A stretch of 64,000 nucleotides of DNA from Immundisolibacterales bacterium (GTDB taxonomy: Bacteria > Pseudomonadota > Gammaproteobacteria > HK1): assembly GCA_026712715.1 (NCBI GenBank), contig JAPOPW010000007.1, positions 1 through 64,000 on the forward strand. The letters run 5' to 3'. The position numbers and the translations under genes were made by a program. The notes beneath the pieces were generated by a model. It ran no database searches. It was not told the DNA's origin and saw only the letters and a list, made by a program, of their open reading frames with translations. Below are positions 3,055 through 62,390 of the stretch, in pieces (within the stretch, counting starts at the first letter, position 1; the number at the start of each line of letters is the position of its first letter).

Positions 3055-3534
3055 TCACGCCTCCGCGCGCATTTCCGCCGCCGCCTTCTGCACCGCGCGG
3101 ACGATCTTGTCGTACCCGGTGCAACGGCAGAGGTTGCCGGCCAGCCAGTACCGGATCTCGGTCTCGCTGGGATCGAGGTCACGGTCGAGCAGTGCCTTTG
3201 CCGCCACCAGGAACCCCGGCGTGCAGATTCCGCACTGAAGTGCCGCCTCCTCGAGGAACGTCCGCTGGAGCGGATGGAGCCGTTCGCCCTCCGCCATCCC
3301 CTCGATGGTTTCGACCTCGCGGCCCTCGGCTTCCACGGCCAGCGCGAGGCAGGCGCACACCAGGCGGCCGTCGAGCATCACGCTGCAGGCACCGCAGTCG
3401 CCCGAGCCGCAGCCTTCCTTGCTGCCGGTGAGTCCGAGCTCGTCCCGCAGCGCGTCGAGCAGGGTCTGGTCCACTTCACAGAGAAACTCCCGCGGCTCTC
3501 CGTTGACCGTCGTCGTCACATGTCGCTTGGCCAT
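3055..3534 (-). CDS. (2Fe-2S)-binding subunit of molybdenum hydroxylase
   Basis: A 159-residue small subunit carrying two [2Fe-2S] clusters that pass electrons from the molybdenum centre to FAD. The plant-ferredoxin-like cluster is seen as KEGCGSGDCGACSV, the second four-cysteine cluster as CGICTPGF and CRCTGYDKIV. Length and order match CoxS/XdhC-type small subunits. It is separated by only 3 bases from the FAD subunit gene upstream and by 3 bases from the molybdenum subunit gene downstream, so the three are almost certainly translated from one message. Confidence 0.93.
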   Translation of the reverse strand: MAKRHVTTTVNGEPREFLCEVDQTLLDALRDELGLTGSKEGCGSGDCGACSVMLDGRLVCACLALAVEAEGREVETIEGMAEGERLHPLQRTFLEEAALQCGICTPGFLVAAKALLDRDLDPSETEIRYWLAGNLCRCTGYDKIVRAVQKAAAEMRAEA

Positions 3535-27762: not shown

Positions 27763-28035
27763 ATGAAAAAGTCAGACATTGCGGCCCATGTAGCCAACCA
27801 GGCGTCGTTGTCCAGGCCCGTTGCGGACAGCGCGGTCAACGCGGTCTTCTCGGCAATCAGCGACGCCCTTGCACGGGAAGAGACCGTCACCATCGCGGGG
27901 TTCGGCACGTTCTCGACGAAGAGGCGTCCCGCACGTCAGGGGCGCAATCCCCGTACCGGGGAGAGCATCACCATCTCCGCCTCGATAGTCCCGTCCTTCA
28001 AGCCGGGCAAGACCCTTCGCGACGCCGTCAACTAG
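27763..28035 (+). CDS. HU-family DNA-binding protein
   Basis: A 90-residue histone-like protein. It starts MKKSDIAAHVANQASLSRP and has VTIAGFGTFSTKRRPARQGRNPRTGESITI, the beta-arm with the intercalating RNP motif. GGAAGGAAAG lies just before ATG 27763, fixing the start. The position outside the lon region suggests a second HU paralogue. A hairpin follows the stop directly and then the dispersed repeat at 28043. Confidence 0.92.
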   Translation: MKKSDIAAHVANQASLSRPVADSAVNAVFSAISDALAREETVTIAGFGTFSTKRRPARQGRNPRTGESITISASIVPSFKPGKTLRDAVN

Positions 28036-28051
28036 GCTCCTCGAGGGGGCC
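28035..28051 (+). terminator. hairpin directly after the HU gene
   Basis: GGCTCC (28035-28040) pairs with GGGGCC (28046-28051), one pair being G-U, followed within a few bases by ATCTTT. It may end the HU message, but it also overlaps the first bases of the repeat element. Confidence 0.4.
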
Positions 28052-28218
28052 CGATCTTTGCGGATGGTTCAAGTTTGCAAACCGGTTTCAGCACCGAGGC
28101 GTACGAGGCTGCCACCAAGAGAAGTGCCTGCATTTCTCCTGGCAGGGCGCGACGGGGCTTCGGACGAAGATGGGCGGGTTCGACCATGTCCCGTCGGTCC
28201 GAGGCGCAGCCGGGCTAG
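28043..28218 (+). repeat. copy A of a dispersed noncoding element, possible structured RNA
   Basis: This segment and 60806-60954 share long conserved ends but differ in length and sequence in the middle. Conserved parts are ATCTTT-x-CGGATG, TCAAGT-x-TGC, CGGTTTC, CGTACGAGGCTGC-x-ACC, then GGGTTCGA, CGTCG-x-TCCG, CGCAGCC and GCTAG. A hairpin GTTTC/GAGGC here, with G-U pairs, corresponds to GTTTC/GAAAC in the other copy. GGCTGC near 28107 can pair with GCAGCC near 28206. The last four bases overlap the stop codon of the HAD gene on the other strand. Substitutions do not follow a codon pattern, so it is not read as protein. Confidence 0.65.
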
Positions 28219-29120
28219 CCTTCGGCCGGGGCTGCGGCGCGGGCGAATCCGCCCCCGTCGCGGTTCACCGTCCGCACCGCATCGCTGAATCCTCCGGCGT
28301 CGTTCGACGCGACGACACGGTACCGTTCCAGCAGCTCGGGGGCGGCGTTGCCCACCACGAAGGGGTTGGCGCTCCACCGCAACATGCCGCAGTCGTTGTA
28401 GTCGTTGCCGACCGCGACGGTCCGCCCCGCGTCGAGACCGTGGCGGGCGGCAAGCCACGCCACCGCGGACTCCTTGCTCACCCCGCGCGGGCGCACCTCG
28501 ACCCAGATTGAACGCCCGTCCAGGGGCGAAGTGCTCCGGACCACCGCGAAGTCCGACAACCCGGTGCCCAGCCGATCGTGGAGCGCGTCCTCGCCGGGCT
28601 CGAGGATGGCCACGAACTGGCAGGCCGCCGGGAGGGGGCCGGTTCCGTCGTCCGGCCTCGTGCCCGCACCGCCGCCATCGTCCCACGGCGCGGCGAACTC
28701 GCCGTACCTCCCGATGCGCCGTTCGAAGTCCGGATTGCCCGGACGCGCCCGCACGTATCGAAACCGATGGTCGTCCGGCACCGGATCGTGGGCCATGAAG
28801 TCGACCCCGAAACGGCGCAGCGCCTCGGCCACCCGGCGCACGTCTCCCGCCTCGAACGCGTGCCGGCGGAGCAACCGTCGGGACCCCCAATCGAGGATTC
28901 CGGCCCCGCTCGACACCACCAGGTAGTCGATCGGGACTGCGCGATCGAGGACCCGCTCCGCCGCCACGAGCGATCGCCCGGTCGCGACCACGCGGACCAC
29001 GCCGGCCTCGCCGAGCTCCCTGAGGGCGAGCGCATCGCGCGACCCCAACGTATGGTCCGAGCCGAGGAGCGTGCCGTCGAGATCCGTGGCGATCAGGCCG
29101 ACCGGCGGCGGTCGGCTCAC
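28215..29120 (-). CDS. HAD-IIB (Cof-type) phosphatase
   Basis: A 301-residue haloacid-dehalogenase-like hydrolase with a type IIB cap. IATDLDGTLLGSDHTL holds the nucleophilic and general acid Asp residues, VVATGRS motif II, and AVGNDYNDCGML the acidic metal-binding motif IV. These enzymes act on sugar phosphates or cofactors such as pyridoxal or flavin phosphates. The GTG at 29118-29120 has GGAAG just upstream and lies one base after the stop of the fusion oxidoreductase, so translation is coupled; an in-frame GTG at 29135 is the alternative. Confidence 0.85.
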   Translation of the reverse strand: MSRPPPVGLIATDLDGTLLGSDHTLGSRDALALRELGEAGVVRVVATGRSLVAAERVLDRAVPIDYLVVSSGAGILDWGSRRLLRRHAFEAGDVRRVAEALRRFGVDFMAHDPVPDDHRFRYVRARPGNPDFERRIGRYGEFAAPWDDGGGAGTRPDDGTGPLPAACQFVAILEPGEDALHDRLGTGLSDFAVVRSTSPLDGRSIWVEVRPRGVSKESAVAWLAARHGLDAGRTVAVGNDYNDCGMLRWSANPFVVGNAAPELLERYRVVASNDAGGFSDAVRTVNRDGGGFARAAAPAEG

Positions 29121-29121
29121 G

Positions 29122-31266
29122 TCAACTTCCACCACGCCGCCAGCGATGGTAGCGCTCGAGCCACCGCAGGACCCGCTCCGGAGCGTGCTCGCGCCTCCAG
29201 TTTCCGGCTGCGAACTTGGCGCCCTCGGCCATCGTGGGATAGACGTGGATCGTGCCGAGCAGCTTCTTCAGCCCGAGCCCGTGGCGCATCGCGAGGACGA
29301 ACTCCATCAGGAGGTCGCCCGCGTGCTCGCCGGCGATGGTCGCCCCGAGTATCCGATCCTTGCCGGGCACCGTCAGCACCTTGACGAGCCCATGGGCTTC
29401 GGAGTCGGCGATGGCCCGGTCGAGGTCGTCGAATCCGTATCGGGTCACTTCGAACGGGATCCCCTGCTCGGTGGCCTCGATCTCGTTGAGCCCCACCCTT
29501 GCGACCTCGGGATCGGTGAAAGTCGCCCAGGGCACCACCGAATAGTCCGCCCGGAAGCGCTTGAGCCCGCCGAACAAGGCGTTTACCGAGGCATACCAGG
29601 CCTGGTGGGACGCGGTGTGGGTGAACTGATACGGGCCCGCGACGTCGCCGCAGGCGTAGATGTTCGGAAAGCGCGTGGCGAGAAAGTCGTCCGTCTCGAC
29701 CCCCCCGCCGCGAGCCGTCTCGATACCGAGCTCCTCGAGTCCGAACCCGGCCGTGCGCGGGGCACGTCCGACGGCCAGGATCACTTCGTCGAACTCGATC
29801 TCGCGGACCTCGTCGTCCGCGGCCGTGCAGGTGATCGTCTTGCGCCCGCCGTCGCGCGTGAACGCGCTCGCGCGGTGTTCGGTGAGCAGGTCGACGCCCT
29901 CGCCCCGGAGCCGCTCGGCAACGAGCTCGGAGAACTCGGGGTCCTCGCGCGGCAGCACGCGCGCGTGCGTCTGGATCTGGGACACCTCCGACCCGAATCG
30001 CGCGAAGCACTGGGCGAGCTCGCACCCGATGGGCCCGCCGCCCACGACGACGAGGCGGGAGGGGAGGGGTCGGAGCCCCCATACGGTCTCGGACGTGAGG
30101 GGGGCGACGTCCTCGATGCCGGGGATCGGCGGCACGACGGGAGCCGCGCCGGTCGCGACGACGATGTTGCGGGTCGTGATGGTGCGCTCCCCGACGCGCA
30201 CCGCGAAGGGAGACTCGATGAACGCCTCGCCGCGAACGCAATCGACCCCCAGGCCCTCGTAGCGCTCGACCGAGTCGTGCGGAGCGATGCGCTCGATGTT
30301 GCGGTGAACCCGATCCATCACCTGCGCGAAGTCGAAGTCCGCGGTGGCGCCGCGAACCCCGAGCTCCTCCGCGCGTGCGACGTGCGAGAGGAACTTCGCG
30401 GTCCGGATGAGGCTCTTCGAGGGGACGCAGCCGGTGTTGAGGCAATCCCCTCCCATCTCGTCCTTCTCGACGAGGGTGACGCGCGCCCGGACCGTCGCGC
30501 CGATGAGCGAGCTCACGAGCCCCGCGGAGCCCGCCCCGATCACCACGAGATCGCGTTCGAAGCGCTTCGGGCGCCGGTAGCCGCGGTAGATCCGCCGGGC
30601 GCGGAGCGCGTCGACGATCTTCTTCGCGACGAGCGGAAAGACGCCGAGCAGGGCGAAGGAGAGGAGGATGGCCGGAGACAGGATTCCGGCCAGACTCTCG
30701 AGCTCCCCGAGCCGGGTCCCGGCGTTCACGTACACGAGGGTTCCCGGCAGCATGCCGGCCTGGCTCACGAACGCGAACGCCAGCACCCGCATGGACGTCA
30801 ACCCCATCGCGAGGTTGATGATGAAGAACGGGAACACCGGCACGAGGCGCAGGGTGAAGAGGTAGAACGCCCCGTCCTTGCGAACGCCGCCGTCGATTCG
30901 CTCGAGCGCCCCCGCGAACCGGCGTCGCACCGTGTCCCGGGCAAGGTAACGGGCGAGCAGGAAGGCGCAGGTCGCACCAAGGGTCGACGCGAAGGAGACG
31001 ATGACGGTCCCCCATCCAAGGCCGAAGATTGCGCCCGCGACGAGGGTCAGGACGGCGGCGCCAGGCAAGGACAGGCCGGTGACCGCGACGTAAATCGCGA
31101 AGAACACCGCACCGACCAGAAGGGGACGGGCAAGGAACAGATCGTGCATCCGGCCGCGCTGGGCCTGCAGGAACTCGAGGTCCAGGTAACGCCCGAGATC
31201 GAGCGTGAAGAACAGAGCGACGACCACCGCGACCGCGGCGAGGACGAGGAGCTTCTTTCGGTCCAC
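29122..31266 (-). CDS. TVP38/TMEM64 membrane domain fused to a mercuric-reductase-like flavoprotein
   Basis: A 714-residue fusion. Residues 1-230 form a multi-pass TVP38/DedA-like membrane domain (GAAVLTLVAGAIFGLGWG, FTLRLVPVFPFFIINLAMG). Residues 240-714 are a class I pyridine nucleotide-disulfide oxidoreductase with FAD motif VVIGAGSAGLVSS, the redox pair in GGDCLNTGCVPSKSL, NAD(P) motif VVGGGPIGCE and a C-terminal dimerisation domain with THTASHQAWYAS. The C-terminal active site ends HVYPTMAEGAK, as in this group of dihydrolipoamide/mercuric-reductase relatives. Such fusions are known in several proteobacteria; electron acceptor unknown. The HAD phosphatase gene follows directly. Confidence 0.88.
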   Translation of the reverse strand: MDRKKLLVLAAVAVVVALFFTLDLGRYLDLEFLQAQRGRMHDLFLARPLLVGAVFFAIYVAVTGLSLPGAAVLTLVAGAIFGLGWGTVIVSFASTLGATCAFLLARYLARDTVRRRFAGALERIDGGVRKDGAFYLFTLRLVPVFPFFIINLAMGLTSMRVLAFAFVSQAGMLPGTLVYVNAGTRLGELESLAGILSPAILLSFALLGVFPLVAKKIVDALRARRIYRGYRRPKRFERDLVVIGAGSAGLVSSLIGATVRARVTLVEKDEMGGDCLNTGCVPSKSLIRTAKFLSHVARAEELGVRGATADFDFAQVMDRVHRNIERIAPHDSVERYEGLGVDCVRGEAFIESPFAVRVGERTITTRNIVVATGAAPVVPPIPGIEDVAPLTSETVWGLRPLPSRLVVVGGGPIGCELAQCFARFGSEVSQIQTHARVLPREDPEFSELVAERLRGEGVDLLTEHRASAFTRDGGRKTITCTAADDEVREIEFDEVILAVGRAPRTAGFGLEELGIETARGGGVETDDFLATRFPNIYACGDVAGPYQFTHTASHQAWYASVNALFGGLKRFRADYSVVPWATFTDPEVARVGLNEIEATEQGIPFEVTRYGFDDLDRAIADSEAHGLVKVLTVPGKDRILGATIAGEHAGDLLMEFVLAMRHGLGLKKLLGTIHVYPTMAEGAKFAAGNWRREHAPERVLRWLERYHRWRRGGS

Positions 31267-59776: not shown

Positions 59777-60652
59777 TCACGCGGCCGGTGCGTCTCCCCC
59801 GCTCCCGGTCATCTTCACATAGTCGTCGAAGAGGCGCCGGGTGACGGGGCCGACCCGTCCGTTTCCCACCGGATGCCCGTCCACCCGGACGGTTGGCCGG
59901 ATCTCGGTCGAAGTCCCGGTGAAGAAGACCTCCTCGGCCGCGCGCAGCTCCTCGACCGGAATCGCCCGTTCCTCCACCGGAAATCCGAGCGCCCTCGCCC
60001 GCTCGAGGACGAAGCCCCGGGTGATCCCGTGCAGGATGTAGTTCGAGGCGGGCGACGTGGTGACGGTTCCGTCGAGCACCGCGAAGAGGTTGTTGTTGGT
60101 CCCCTCGAGGGCCATGCCGTCGCGGACGAAGATCGCATCTTCCACCCCCGCGTCGACCGCGGTCTGCTGGGCGAGCACGTTCGCGACGAGCGAGATCACC
60201 TTGATGTCCGCCCGCCCCCACCTGCGATCGGGGTAGGTGACCGCAGCGAATCCCTCCTCCCAGCGGCTCCGGGGAGGCCGCACGATAGGGTTCGCGAATC
60301 CATAGACGGTGGGCGGGACCGCCCCGGACGGGAAGGCGTGACCGCGCGGTGCGACCCCGCGGCTCACCTGCACGTAGACGAAAGAGAACGGAACGTCGTC
60401 GAGGCCGTTCTCCGCGAGCAGCCGGCGATGGATCTCCGGCATCGCGGCGACGTCGTAGCCGATGCGCAGTCCCTCGAGACTGCGGGAGAGCCTTGCGAGG
60501 TGGCGATCGAGGAGAAAGGGCTCACCATGGTAGGCGGGAGTCGCTTCGTAGACGCCGTCGCCGAAGAGGAAACCCCGATCCTCGACCGGAATCATGGCCT
60601 CGGACTTGGGCACGAACTCGCCGTTCAGGTAGACGATGCTCTCGTTCTTCAC
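59777..60652 (-). CDS. fold-IV PLP aminotransferase (D-amino acid/branched-chain type)
   Basis: A 291-residue class IV aminotransferase. VYLNGEFVPKSEAMIPVEDRGFLFGDGVYE is the standard start, ADIKVISLVANVLAQQ holds the PLP Lys, and GTNNNLFAVLDG and ILHGITRGFVLERA complete the active site. It looks closer to D-amino acid transaminase than to IlvE. GTG 60650-60652 has GGGAGGAAG upstream and is preferred to earlier in-frame starts. Confidence 0.88.
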   Translation of the reverse strand: MKNESIVYLNGEFVPKSEAMIPVEDRGFLFGDGVYEATPAYHGEPFLLDRHLARLSRSLEGLRIGYDVAAMPEIHRRLLAENGLDDVPFSFVYVQVSRGVAPRGHAFPSGAVPPTVYGFANPIVRPPRSRWEEGFAAVTYPDRRWGRADIKVISLVANVLAQQTAVDAGVEDAIFVRDGMALEGTNNNLFAVLDGTVTTSPASNYILHGITRGFVLERARALGFPVEERAIPVEELRAAEEVFFTGTSTEIRPTVRVDGHPVGNGRVGPVTRRLFDDYVKMTGSGGDAPAA

Positions 60653-60805
60653 TTCGCGCTTCCTCCCGCCATCCAAGTTGACCTGCACGCCGTCCACCCC
60701 GGACGCGCGCCGCCGTACGAACCGGTCGACGATCATATCCGGGGTGACGAACGGATGGGGGTTTCCGCCGACCGCCCGGTCGAGGGCGGCTTCGCCAGAC
60801 TCCTT

Positions 60806-60954
60806 GAGGCGCCCCGAATCTTTACGGATGAGTCAAGTCTGCGAATCGGTTTCGGGAGCGAAACGTACGAGGCTGCTACCGCTACGCAGCGGCCGGGTCT
60901 CGAACCAGAGGGGGTTCGAACAGGTCTCGTCGATCCGGGACGCAGCCTCGCTAG
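60806..60954 (+). repeat. copy B of a dispersed noncoding element, possible structured RNA
   Basis: The second copy of the element at 28043-28218, same orientation, about 27 bases shorter. Visible stems on the plus strand: GTTTCG/CGAAAC around GGAG; CGAGGCTGC (60868 region) with GCAGCCTCG (60942-60950), a perfect 9-bp closing stem; and TCGAACC/GGTTCGA inside it. It fills most of the 325-base gap between the divergent aminotransferase and COG0523 genes and ends 23 bases before the latter's ATG, so it could lie in its leader. The rest of the gap shows nothing. Confidence 0.65.
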
Positions 60955-60977
60955 ACTAGCGCTTGCGGGTACGGAAG

Positions 60978-62390
60978 ATGACGAACGCAAGCGCAGAGCC
61001 GGCAATCGATCTCGCGGCGCTCCTCGGTGCGTCGCTCGCCCAGTGGGCGGTCGACGCGCGCCTTGAGCCGGCGGGCGACGCTGCGGTGGTGCGGTGGGGA
61101 GACGGCGCGGCCGTGCGGATCGGGCGGCGGCGGGCGGCGGACGGGACGGGGGCGGCCTGGACGCTCGACGACGAGCCGCTGGCCTCGGTCCTCGAGGTAC
61201 TGCGCGAGGTGCGGCACGCGGTGGACCCGGACTTCGCGCCGGCGCGACTTCGGATCGGCCCCCCGCCTCCGGACGACGAGGACGGACCCGGGATTCGGGA
61301 CTTCGACCCGCGGCGCGGAACCGAGGGCGCGGTCGGGCGGCTGCCCGTCTTCGTCCTCACCGGGTTCCTCGGAAGCGGCAAGACGACACTCCTCAACCGG
61401 CTGCTTCGGGCGGAGGGGTTTCGCGACACCGCGGTCGTCGTCAACGAGCTGGGCGCCATCGGCATCGACCACCTGCTCGTCGAGTCGAGCGACGACGACT
61501 CGGTGGTCGAGCTTGCGGGGGGGTGCCTTTGCTGCGCGGTCCGCGGAGACCTCGCCCGCACCTTGAGTGAGCTAGTCGCGCGGCGCGAGGCGGGCGCCTG
61601 CGCACCATTTTCCCGCATCCTCATCGAGACGAGCGGCCTTGCGGACCCGACGCCGATCGAGTCGCTCCTGCTCGCTGACCCCGCGCTCGCGGAGCGCATG
61701 AAGCTCGCCGGCGTCACCGCCTGCGTGGCCGCGACGACCGGCGACTCGGTGCTCGACCGGTACCCCGAGGCGGTGCGCCAGGTCGCGGCCGCCAATCTTC
61801 TCGTCACCACCAAGACCGACCTCGCGGCGGTGCCGGCCGCTCTCGACGAGCGCCTGCGGTACATCAACCCGGGCGCGAATCGGGTCGCCGCCGAGTTCGG
61901 GCGGGTGCGACCGGCGGACGGCGCCGCCGACAACGCCGAGACGGACGGCACCCATGCGGACGTCCTTCCCCTGCGCCGATTCTCCCGCCGGTTGCCGGCA
62001 CCCGCGTCCGACGAGTCCGTCCCGCACGCAGTCGGAATCGACACGTTCACCCTCGTCCGGCACGAACCGATCGCGGGCGCGGCGCTGACCCTTTTCCTCC
62101 GCGCCCTCGTCGAGCACGCGGGCCCGCGGCTGCTTCGGCTCAAGGGATTCGTCGAGATCGCGGAAGCGCCCGGCCGGCCGGTCACCGTCAACGGCGCAGG
62201 TCACGTCTTCGAGCCGGTGGAGCCTCGCTCGAGCGGCTGGCCGGGTCCCGACCGACGAAGCCGCCTCGTCCTCATCGGGGAGGGCATCTCCGCCCCCTGG
62301 TGCGATCGCATGCTGGACGCCCTCGACCTGGACGTGCGGGAGGCTGCGAGGTTCCGGGGGTACACTTCGCAGCGGACGGGAACCGCCTGA
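60978..62390 (+). CDS. COG0523 (CobW/ZNG-type) metal-chaperone GTPase with an N-terminal extension
   Basis: A 470-residue G3E GTPase. Walker A is TGFLGSGKTTLLN near residue 132, the metal-binding CxCC is GGCLCCAVRGDL, and TKTDL is the nucleotide-specificity motif; the C-terminal CobW domain follows. The first ~120 residues are an extra domain of unknown fold ending in an acidic linker (PPPPDDEDGPG). Such GTPases hand zinc, cobalt or iron to target enzymes. The hydantoinase gene, coding for a metalloenzyme, starts 32 bases downstream and is a likely client. Confidence 0.88.
   Translation: MTNASAEPAIDLAALLGASLAQWAVDARLEPAGDAAVVRWGDGAAVRIGRRRAADGTGAAWTLDDEPLASVLEVLREVRHAVDPDFAPARLRIGPPPPDDEDGPGIRDFDPRRGTEGAVGRLPVFVLTGFLGSGKTTLLNRLLRAEGFRDTAVVVNELGAIGIDHLLVESSDDDSVVELAGGCLCCAVRGDLARTLSELVARREAGACAPFSRILIETSGLADPTPIESLLLADPALAERMKLAGVTACVAATTGDSVLDRYPEAVRQVAAANLLVTTKTDLAAVPAALDERLRYINPGANRVAAEFGRVRPADGAADNAETDGTHADVLPLRRFSRRLPAPASDESVPHAVGIDTFTLVRHEPIAGAALTLFLRALVEHAGPRLLRLKGFVEIAEAPGRPVTVNGAGHVFEPVEPRSSGWPGPDRRSRLVLIGEGISAPWCDRMLDALDLDVREAARFRGYTSQRTGTA

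Follow-up and report, generated by a model that had tools for sequence, protein, structure and literature searches.

The window analysed here, a stretch of 64,000 nucleotides from an Immundisolibacterales bacterium, is part of contig 74 of a 5.05 Mb genome in 82 contigs (G000, hereafter the own genome) and carries two copies of a non-coding element in the same orientation. Copy A lies between the convergent genes of an HU-type DNA-binding protein and a HAD-like hydrolase, copy B between those of a class IV aminotransferase and a CobW-family GTPase (Table 1). A first-pass annotation had described two such copies with conserved ends at these places, and in searches of the own genome their similarity proved far beyond chance. 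The 3' ends it gave were correct, whereas its starts at 28043 and 60806 are 11 bases inside the true starts at 28032 and 60795, and at both ends each unit has CTAG or a one-transition variant of it. The middles, which had been called unrelated, differ by an extra 24-nt hairpin insert in copy A; the remainder aligns with copy B, with 124 of 159 aligned bases identical (78%), middles included.

Table 1. Element copies, their parts and the neighbouring genes in the window.
Feature	Position	Strand	Details and basis
Copy A, long form, whole unit with both terminal CTAGs	28032..28218	+	187 nt; own-genome search, iterative alignment, sequence model, exact empty site in G002
Copy A, 5' terminal CTAG, contains TAG stop codon of HU gene	28032..28035	+	Sequence, gene calls, single CTAG in G002 empty site
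Copy A, 3' terminal CTAG, contains TAG stop codon of HAD hydrolase gene (minus strand)	28215..28218	+	Sequence, gene calls, G002 empty site
Copy A, hairpin insert GAGAAGTGC-CT-GCATTTCTC, marks the long form	28119..28138	+	Alignment of short and long copies; absent from copy B
Copy A, right-end hairpin region, consensus CGAGGC-GCA-GCCTCG, distal arm here decayed to GCCGGG	28200..28214	+	Alignment
Copy B, short form, whole unit; 5' tetramer CCAG, 3' tetramer CTAG	60795..60954	+	160 nt; own-genome search, iterative alignment, sequence model
Copy B, 5' terminal tetramer CCAG, one-transition variant of CTAG	60795..60798	+	Sequence
Copy B, 3' terminal CTAG; further CTAG at 60956-60959	60951..60954	+	Sequence
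Copy B, right-end hairpin region CGGGAC-GCA-GCCTCG	60936..60950	+	Alignment
HU-type DNA-binding protein gene, left neighbour of copy A	27763..28035	+	Pfam PF00216, E 4e-32
HAD-like hydrolase gene, right neighbour of copy A, convergent	28215..29135	-	Pfam PF08282, E 5e-27
Class IV aminotransferase gene, left neighbour of copy B	59777..60736	-	Pfam PF01063, E 3e-44
CobW-family GTPase gene, right neighbour of copy B	60978..62390	+	Pfam PF02492, E 1e-40

The consensus of the element in the own genome measures 163 nt in the short form and 187 nt in the long form, which additionally contains the self-complementary 24-nt insert. Its 5' end reads CTAG-ACTCCTTGAGGGGCCCCGAT and its 3' end GTCGGTCCGAGGCGCAGCCTCG-CTAG; the end motifs can also be written CTAG-ACTCCTTGAGG... 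on the left and ...GGTCCGAGGCGCAGCCTCG-CTAG on the right. Beyond the terminal tetramers the sequences flanking the aligned copies are unrelated. Some middle segments represent different subfamilies. Five copies seemed to possess an alternative 3' end, but this is only apparent and is caused by a structured insert of 61 nt within the right end, the terminal GCAGCCTCGCTAG being mostly kept. The insert has the form CTTGCC...GCAAG with two inner hairpins and occupies the same place in short and long forms alike; its carriers in the own genome are L019 (about 3456-3516), L033, L036, L040 (about 8858) and L047 (about 3269). A peptide product was dropped from consideration, in agreement with the first-pass annotation, as each reading frame is interrupted by stops in many copies.

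Searching the own genome with copy A as the query returned 44 matches, with E values of other copies down to 5e-58, and copy B returned 43. A model of the sequence alone, trained on 48 copies and with matches counted at E <= 0.001, raised this number to 77 and gave 27 matches in G001, at least 8 in G002, 23 in G010, 16 in G016 and one in G004. The element is therefore present in at least 77 copies in the own genome and in dozens more among relatives of the same family. Nucleotide search of the 21 relatives that belong to the same class but to other families found no element. It was also absent from IMG/VR, searched by exact pattern, and from the plasmids and phages searched, and an origin from a phage or plasmid was dropped on these grounds. 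A pattern scan covering one genome per species was positive for the MAGs jk18x27bins.56 and jk18x1bzbins.85, both labelled Gammaproteobacteria, and for one MAG labelled Defluviicoccus; a match in Myxococcota comprises the right end alone and may be due to chance. In G002 and other relatives conservation is limited to about 55 nt at the left end and about 40 nt at the right end; the sequence in between is quite unlike, one example being a long GC-rich inverted repeat. Element middles of G002 (L130-L133, L143-L145, L148) show the GC-rich palindromic repeat GGGAGCGCGGGCTTCC(A/C)GCCCGCG, which is partly reiterated several times within one copy (L133). At two pairs of orthologous sites in the own genome and G001 (L023/L085 and L038/L090) we noticed that different subfamilies of the element are present although the adjoining coding DNA is nearly identical, which suggests that the resident element was converted or replaced at its site.

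The clearest information on how these copies arose comes from sites where the element is missing. G002 is a complete genome from the same genus, and in it the convergent HU and HAD genes both end in one CTAG that holds their two stop codons, AACTAGCCC. At this position the window reads AACTAG-[179 nt]-CTAGCC, that is, 183 bp extra between two CTAGs. Likewise, the copy at L022:12382-12544 is matched in G001 by an exact empty site with a single CTAG. The copy at L195:3477-3639 is also missing from G001, where the adjacent gene stops at the same codon (CGA TAG vs CGC TAG). For copy B, the search for an empty site met a spacer that was too diverged. Where two units stand in tandem (L052 and L034), their overlap is exactly the one tetramer that they have in common. 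Together, the empty sites and the tandem units establish that a discrete unit was inserted, or else precisely lost. The element is thus mobile DNA, and of the possibilities listed in the first-pass annotation it is the mobile non-coding element that agrees with the high copy number, the empty sites and the tandem units. That the repeat is not mobile and has multiplied solely through segmental duplication or homologous recombination might be read from the differing subfamilies at orthologous sites, which suggest conversion between copies; since the flanks are unrelated right up to the tetramer and exact empty sites contradict it, we regard this as hardly credible.

We also considered whether the element acts as RNA. 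The first-pass annotation had derived an RNA from changes between copies A and B that keep a stem, namely GTTTC pairing with GAGGC in one copy and with GAAAC in the other. Across 48 copies, two-sided changes in the left hairpin, the GTTTC/GAAAC stem, the right hairpin and a 9-bp stem were no commoner than in shuffles, and all four stems change no more compatibly with pairing than shuffled letters do; the argument from compensatory changes falls away. An R-scape-like covariation test on 104 copies gave no pair at E < 1, and the strongest links it found lie in the middle of the element and do not pair. This test was home-made and not R-scape itself (a FastTree tree, substitutions re-dealt along the branches, 20 null alignments), and its power on closely related copies is uncalibrated. 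RNAalifold returned almost no consensus structure, with an energy of only -1.3 kcal/mol. Folding energies of whole copies are ordinary, with a mean z of about -0.7 on the plus and about -0.5 on the minus strand; the right end shows a slight folding excess over shuffles and the left end has no stable hairpin. In Rfam the elements had no match at the gathering threshold, and copy A had none at E <= 5. Neighbouring genes are arranged opposite/opposite in 21 cases, opposite/same in 20, same/same in 11 and same/opposite in 7, and a cis-regulatory leader or riboswitch was dropped for this reason. The search in the genome and its relatives that had been proposed as a check was well chosen; the part concerning further copies was borne out and the part concerning covariation was not; structured RNA on grounds of covariation was dropped as no signal was seen.

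A family of structured small RNAs or leaders, multi-copy by happenstance, would gain from the right-end hairpin being mildly stabler than shuffles, from the self-folding 24-nt and 61-nt inserts, which resemble expansion segments, and from an alternative 9-bp stem CGAGGCTGC/GCAGCCTCG that is paired at 89%. Against this stand the covariation result, the stem changes matching shuffles, the ordinary folding of the whole element on both strands, the missing Rfam match and the variable position and orientation with respect to genes, including 7 cases between convergent genes. We therefore consider an RNA family, and with it the small RNA or structured leader suggested earlier, very improbable. Given that the stem changes equal those in shuffles and folding is ordinary, the GTTTC pairings are most simply explained as wobble pairs that came about by chance while the copies decayed. 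More generally, the case cautions that when two copies of a repeat seem to differ by compensatory changes, neutral decay can be the cause.

We next turn to the tetramer at which the element is found. CTAG is rare in the window, with 8 occurrences against 53 expected, an approximately 6.6-fold depletion, and four of these eight are located at or adjoining copies A and B. Among 50 copies none was located inside a gene, and 17 contained a TAG stop codon within a terminal tetramer, 14 at the 3' end and 4 at the 5' end, copy A having both. Counts of stop codons and neighbours use gene calls from our own codon-usage script and are approximate. The sampled DNA of the own genome beyond the elements contains 54 CTAGs, of which 18 coincide with predicted stop codons and 17 fall in spacers; by comparison, only 2 of 9900 CCAG, CTGG and CCGG sites in this background are at stop-codon positions. 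These counts and the lack of copies inside genes fit insertion into CTAG followed by loss of those insertions that break genes. Most terminal tetramers are now CTAG, CCAG, CTGG or CCGG. A strict CYRG target was considered first, but the stop-codon statistics and the substitution bias favor CTAG with later drift: along their whole length the copies differ above all by A>G and T>C changes, so much of the tetramer variation can be attributed to drift from CTAG. The target may nevertheless be a relaxed CYRG, as C1 of the 5' tetramer is kept in 54 of 54 copies and G4 in 52 of 54, better than expected from how other C and G positions drift, and about 41% of copies have C or G at its middle positions.

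Taking these results together, the element is very probably a short (about 160–190 bp), non-coding and non-autonomous mobile DNA element that inserts into CTAG. A transposase supplied in trans would perform the insertion and leave CTAG on each side, either by duplication of a 4-bp target or since the element brings a terminal CTAG of its own. CTAG is scarce in the genome and is often a TAG stop codon with a C before it, so that many surviving insertions lie precisely at the ends of genes. There an insertion regenerates CTAG and retains the stop codon. Inserted copies then decay with no constraint to be seen, both tetramers drifting mostly to CCAG, CTGG or CCGG. The mobility, the strong link with CTAG, the copy number, the spread through the family and the lack of RNA covariation are all shown by the data above.

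Two ways of movement have to be weighed. A MITE-like derivative of a CTAG-duplicating IS family, moved by a DDE transposase, would account for one CTAG at empty sites and CTAG on both sides of filled sites. Its model would be IS481-like elements with the target NCTAGN, a term used in IS481 papers, or IS5-like elements with YTAR. Such an element should have inverted repeats at its termini, yet its ends are no more alike than shuffled ones: the local score is 12.2 vs 11.3 after shuffling, and end-anchored comparison yields a mean of 3.0 matches in 12. In addition, although a single CTAG is found at two exact empty sites, the 5' tetramer of a copy does not predict its 3' tetramer, the two being identical in 15 cases with 19.6 expected, which weakens a simple target duplication. 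On balance a DDE-moved derivative is possible, though less likely than not.

A single-strand HUH-type element, as in derivatives of IS200/IS605, REP/BIME or IS91-like elements, would insert 3' of a tetranucleotide and bring along its own 3' tetranucleotide beside a hairpin. The hairpin abutting the 3' tetramer and the missing inverted repeats are in line with this, and because of the unlike ends we lean weakly towards an enzyme independent of inverted repeats, for instance a single-strand HUH-like one. Moreover, the 3' tetramer tracks the internal relationships of the copies, agreeing with the tetramer of the nearest neighbour in 25 of 62 copies (Mantel p 0.04), and the 5' tetramer does not (10 of 62, p 0.13). 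The element may therefore carry its 3' tetramer along, in the manner of HUH-type systems; the signal is weak, and stop-codon selection at the 3' CTAG may confound it. The left end has no stable hairpin either, and the enzymes are missing: the Y1 transposase PF01797 is absent from G000, G001, G002, G003, G004 and G016 and the Y2 transposase PF04986 from G000, G001, G002 and G010, with G002 being a complete genome. An origin from IS200/IS605 or RAYT was dropped for want of PF01797 and an IS91-like origin for want of PF04986. We regard an HUH-type mechanism as a tentative candidate, at most slightly more likely than a DDE-moved derivative. No ORF is conserved among the copies, and the sampled loci contain no longer version of the element, all 142 pairs of left and right ends being 118–257 nt apart. 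Aligned copies of the own genome differ from the consensus by at least 5.5% (median 13.8%). The family thus does not look recently active there, and the mobilising enzyme may have been lost.

Several known systems resemble the element in part. REP/BIME sequences associated with RAYT/TnpA-REP occur in many dispersed intergenic copies, have a tetranucleotide at the base of their hairpin, form grouped units and are often found by gene ends (PMC3733652, PMC8266576); they are defined as palindromes of 20–40 bp with a GTAG or CGTC tag (PMC3733652). The element shares the dispersed intergenic copies, the tetranucleotide at the hairpin foot, the groups and the location at gene ends, but it measures 160–190 bp, has CTAG instead of GTAG or CGTC, carries a hairpin at one end only and resides in a genome without a Y1 transposase. 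The enterobacterial small mobile repeats RU-1/ERIC (127 bp) and RU-2 (168 bp) are similar, as described (PMC2759123), in size and in their intergenic multi-copy distribution; they are not known to have the target and ends of the element. With MITEs the element has in common that it is short, non-coding, multi-copy and bordered on both sides by a fixed short target; it differs in the missing terminal inverted repeats, the uncorrelated tetramers at its two ends and the lack of a partner IS among the sampled loci. The IS481 family is known to target NCTAGN and the IS5 group YTAR. Both have a CTAG-type target in common with the element, whose ends are not inverted repeats.

The kind of element is thus known, short non-autonomous mobile DNA, and it is the target and the unlike ends that set it apart. 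That it represents a CTAG-specific, stop-codon-sparing family moved by a kind of transposase not yet linked to such short elements, lacking inverted repeats, having a hairpin on one side only and taking self-folding inserts along as modules, strikes us as rather unlikely. Its target is a tetranucleotide strongly depleted in the host and largely coinciding with stop codons, so that a compact genome can be colonised while reading frames are spared. At copy A both convergent genes retain their stop codons.

During mapping of the copies we made some further observations on intergenic sequences. L125:3043-3176 and L157:603-763 constitute an orthologous spacer of the own genome and G001 with weak matches to the element in opposite orientation. 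A second dispersed non-coding repeat adjoins an element copy at L022:3441-3661 (contig 82 of the own genome). Segments of this repeat have matches throughout G001 and G004, at many places in each, and it is missing, together with the element, from the corresponding sites of G001 and G002. Finally, the spacer sequence ACCGGACAACCCTTGTGCTACAAAACCGGACAGTTCCATTCGTTGCCAACACCGGAC at L022:4086-4155 has matches of 88–100% at many places in G002, G013 and G016.
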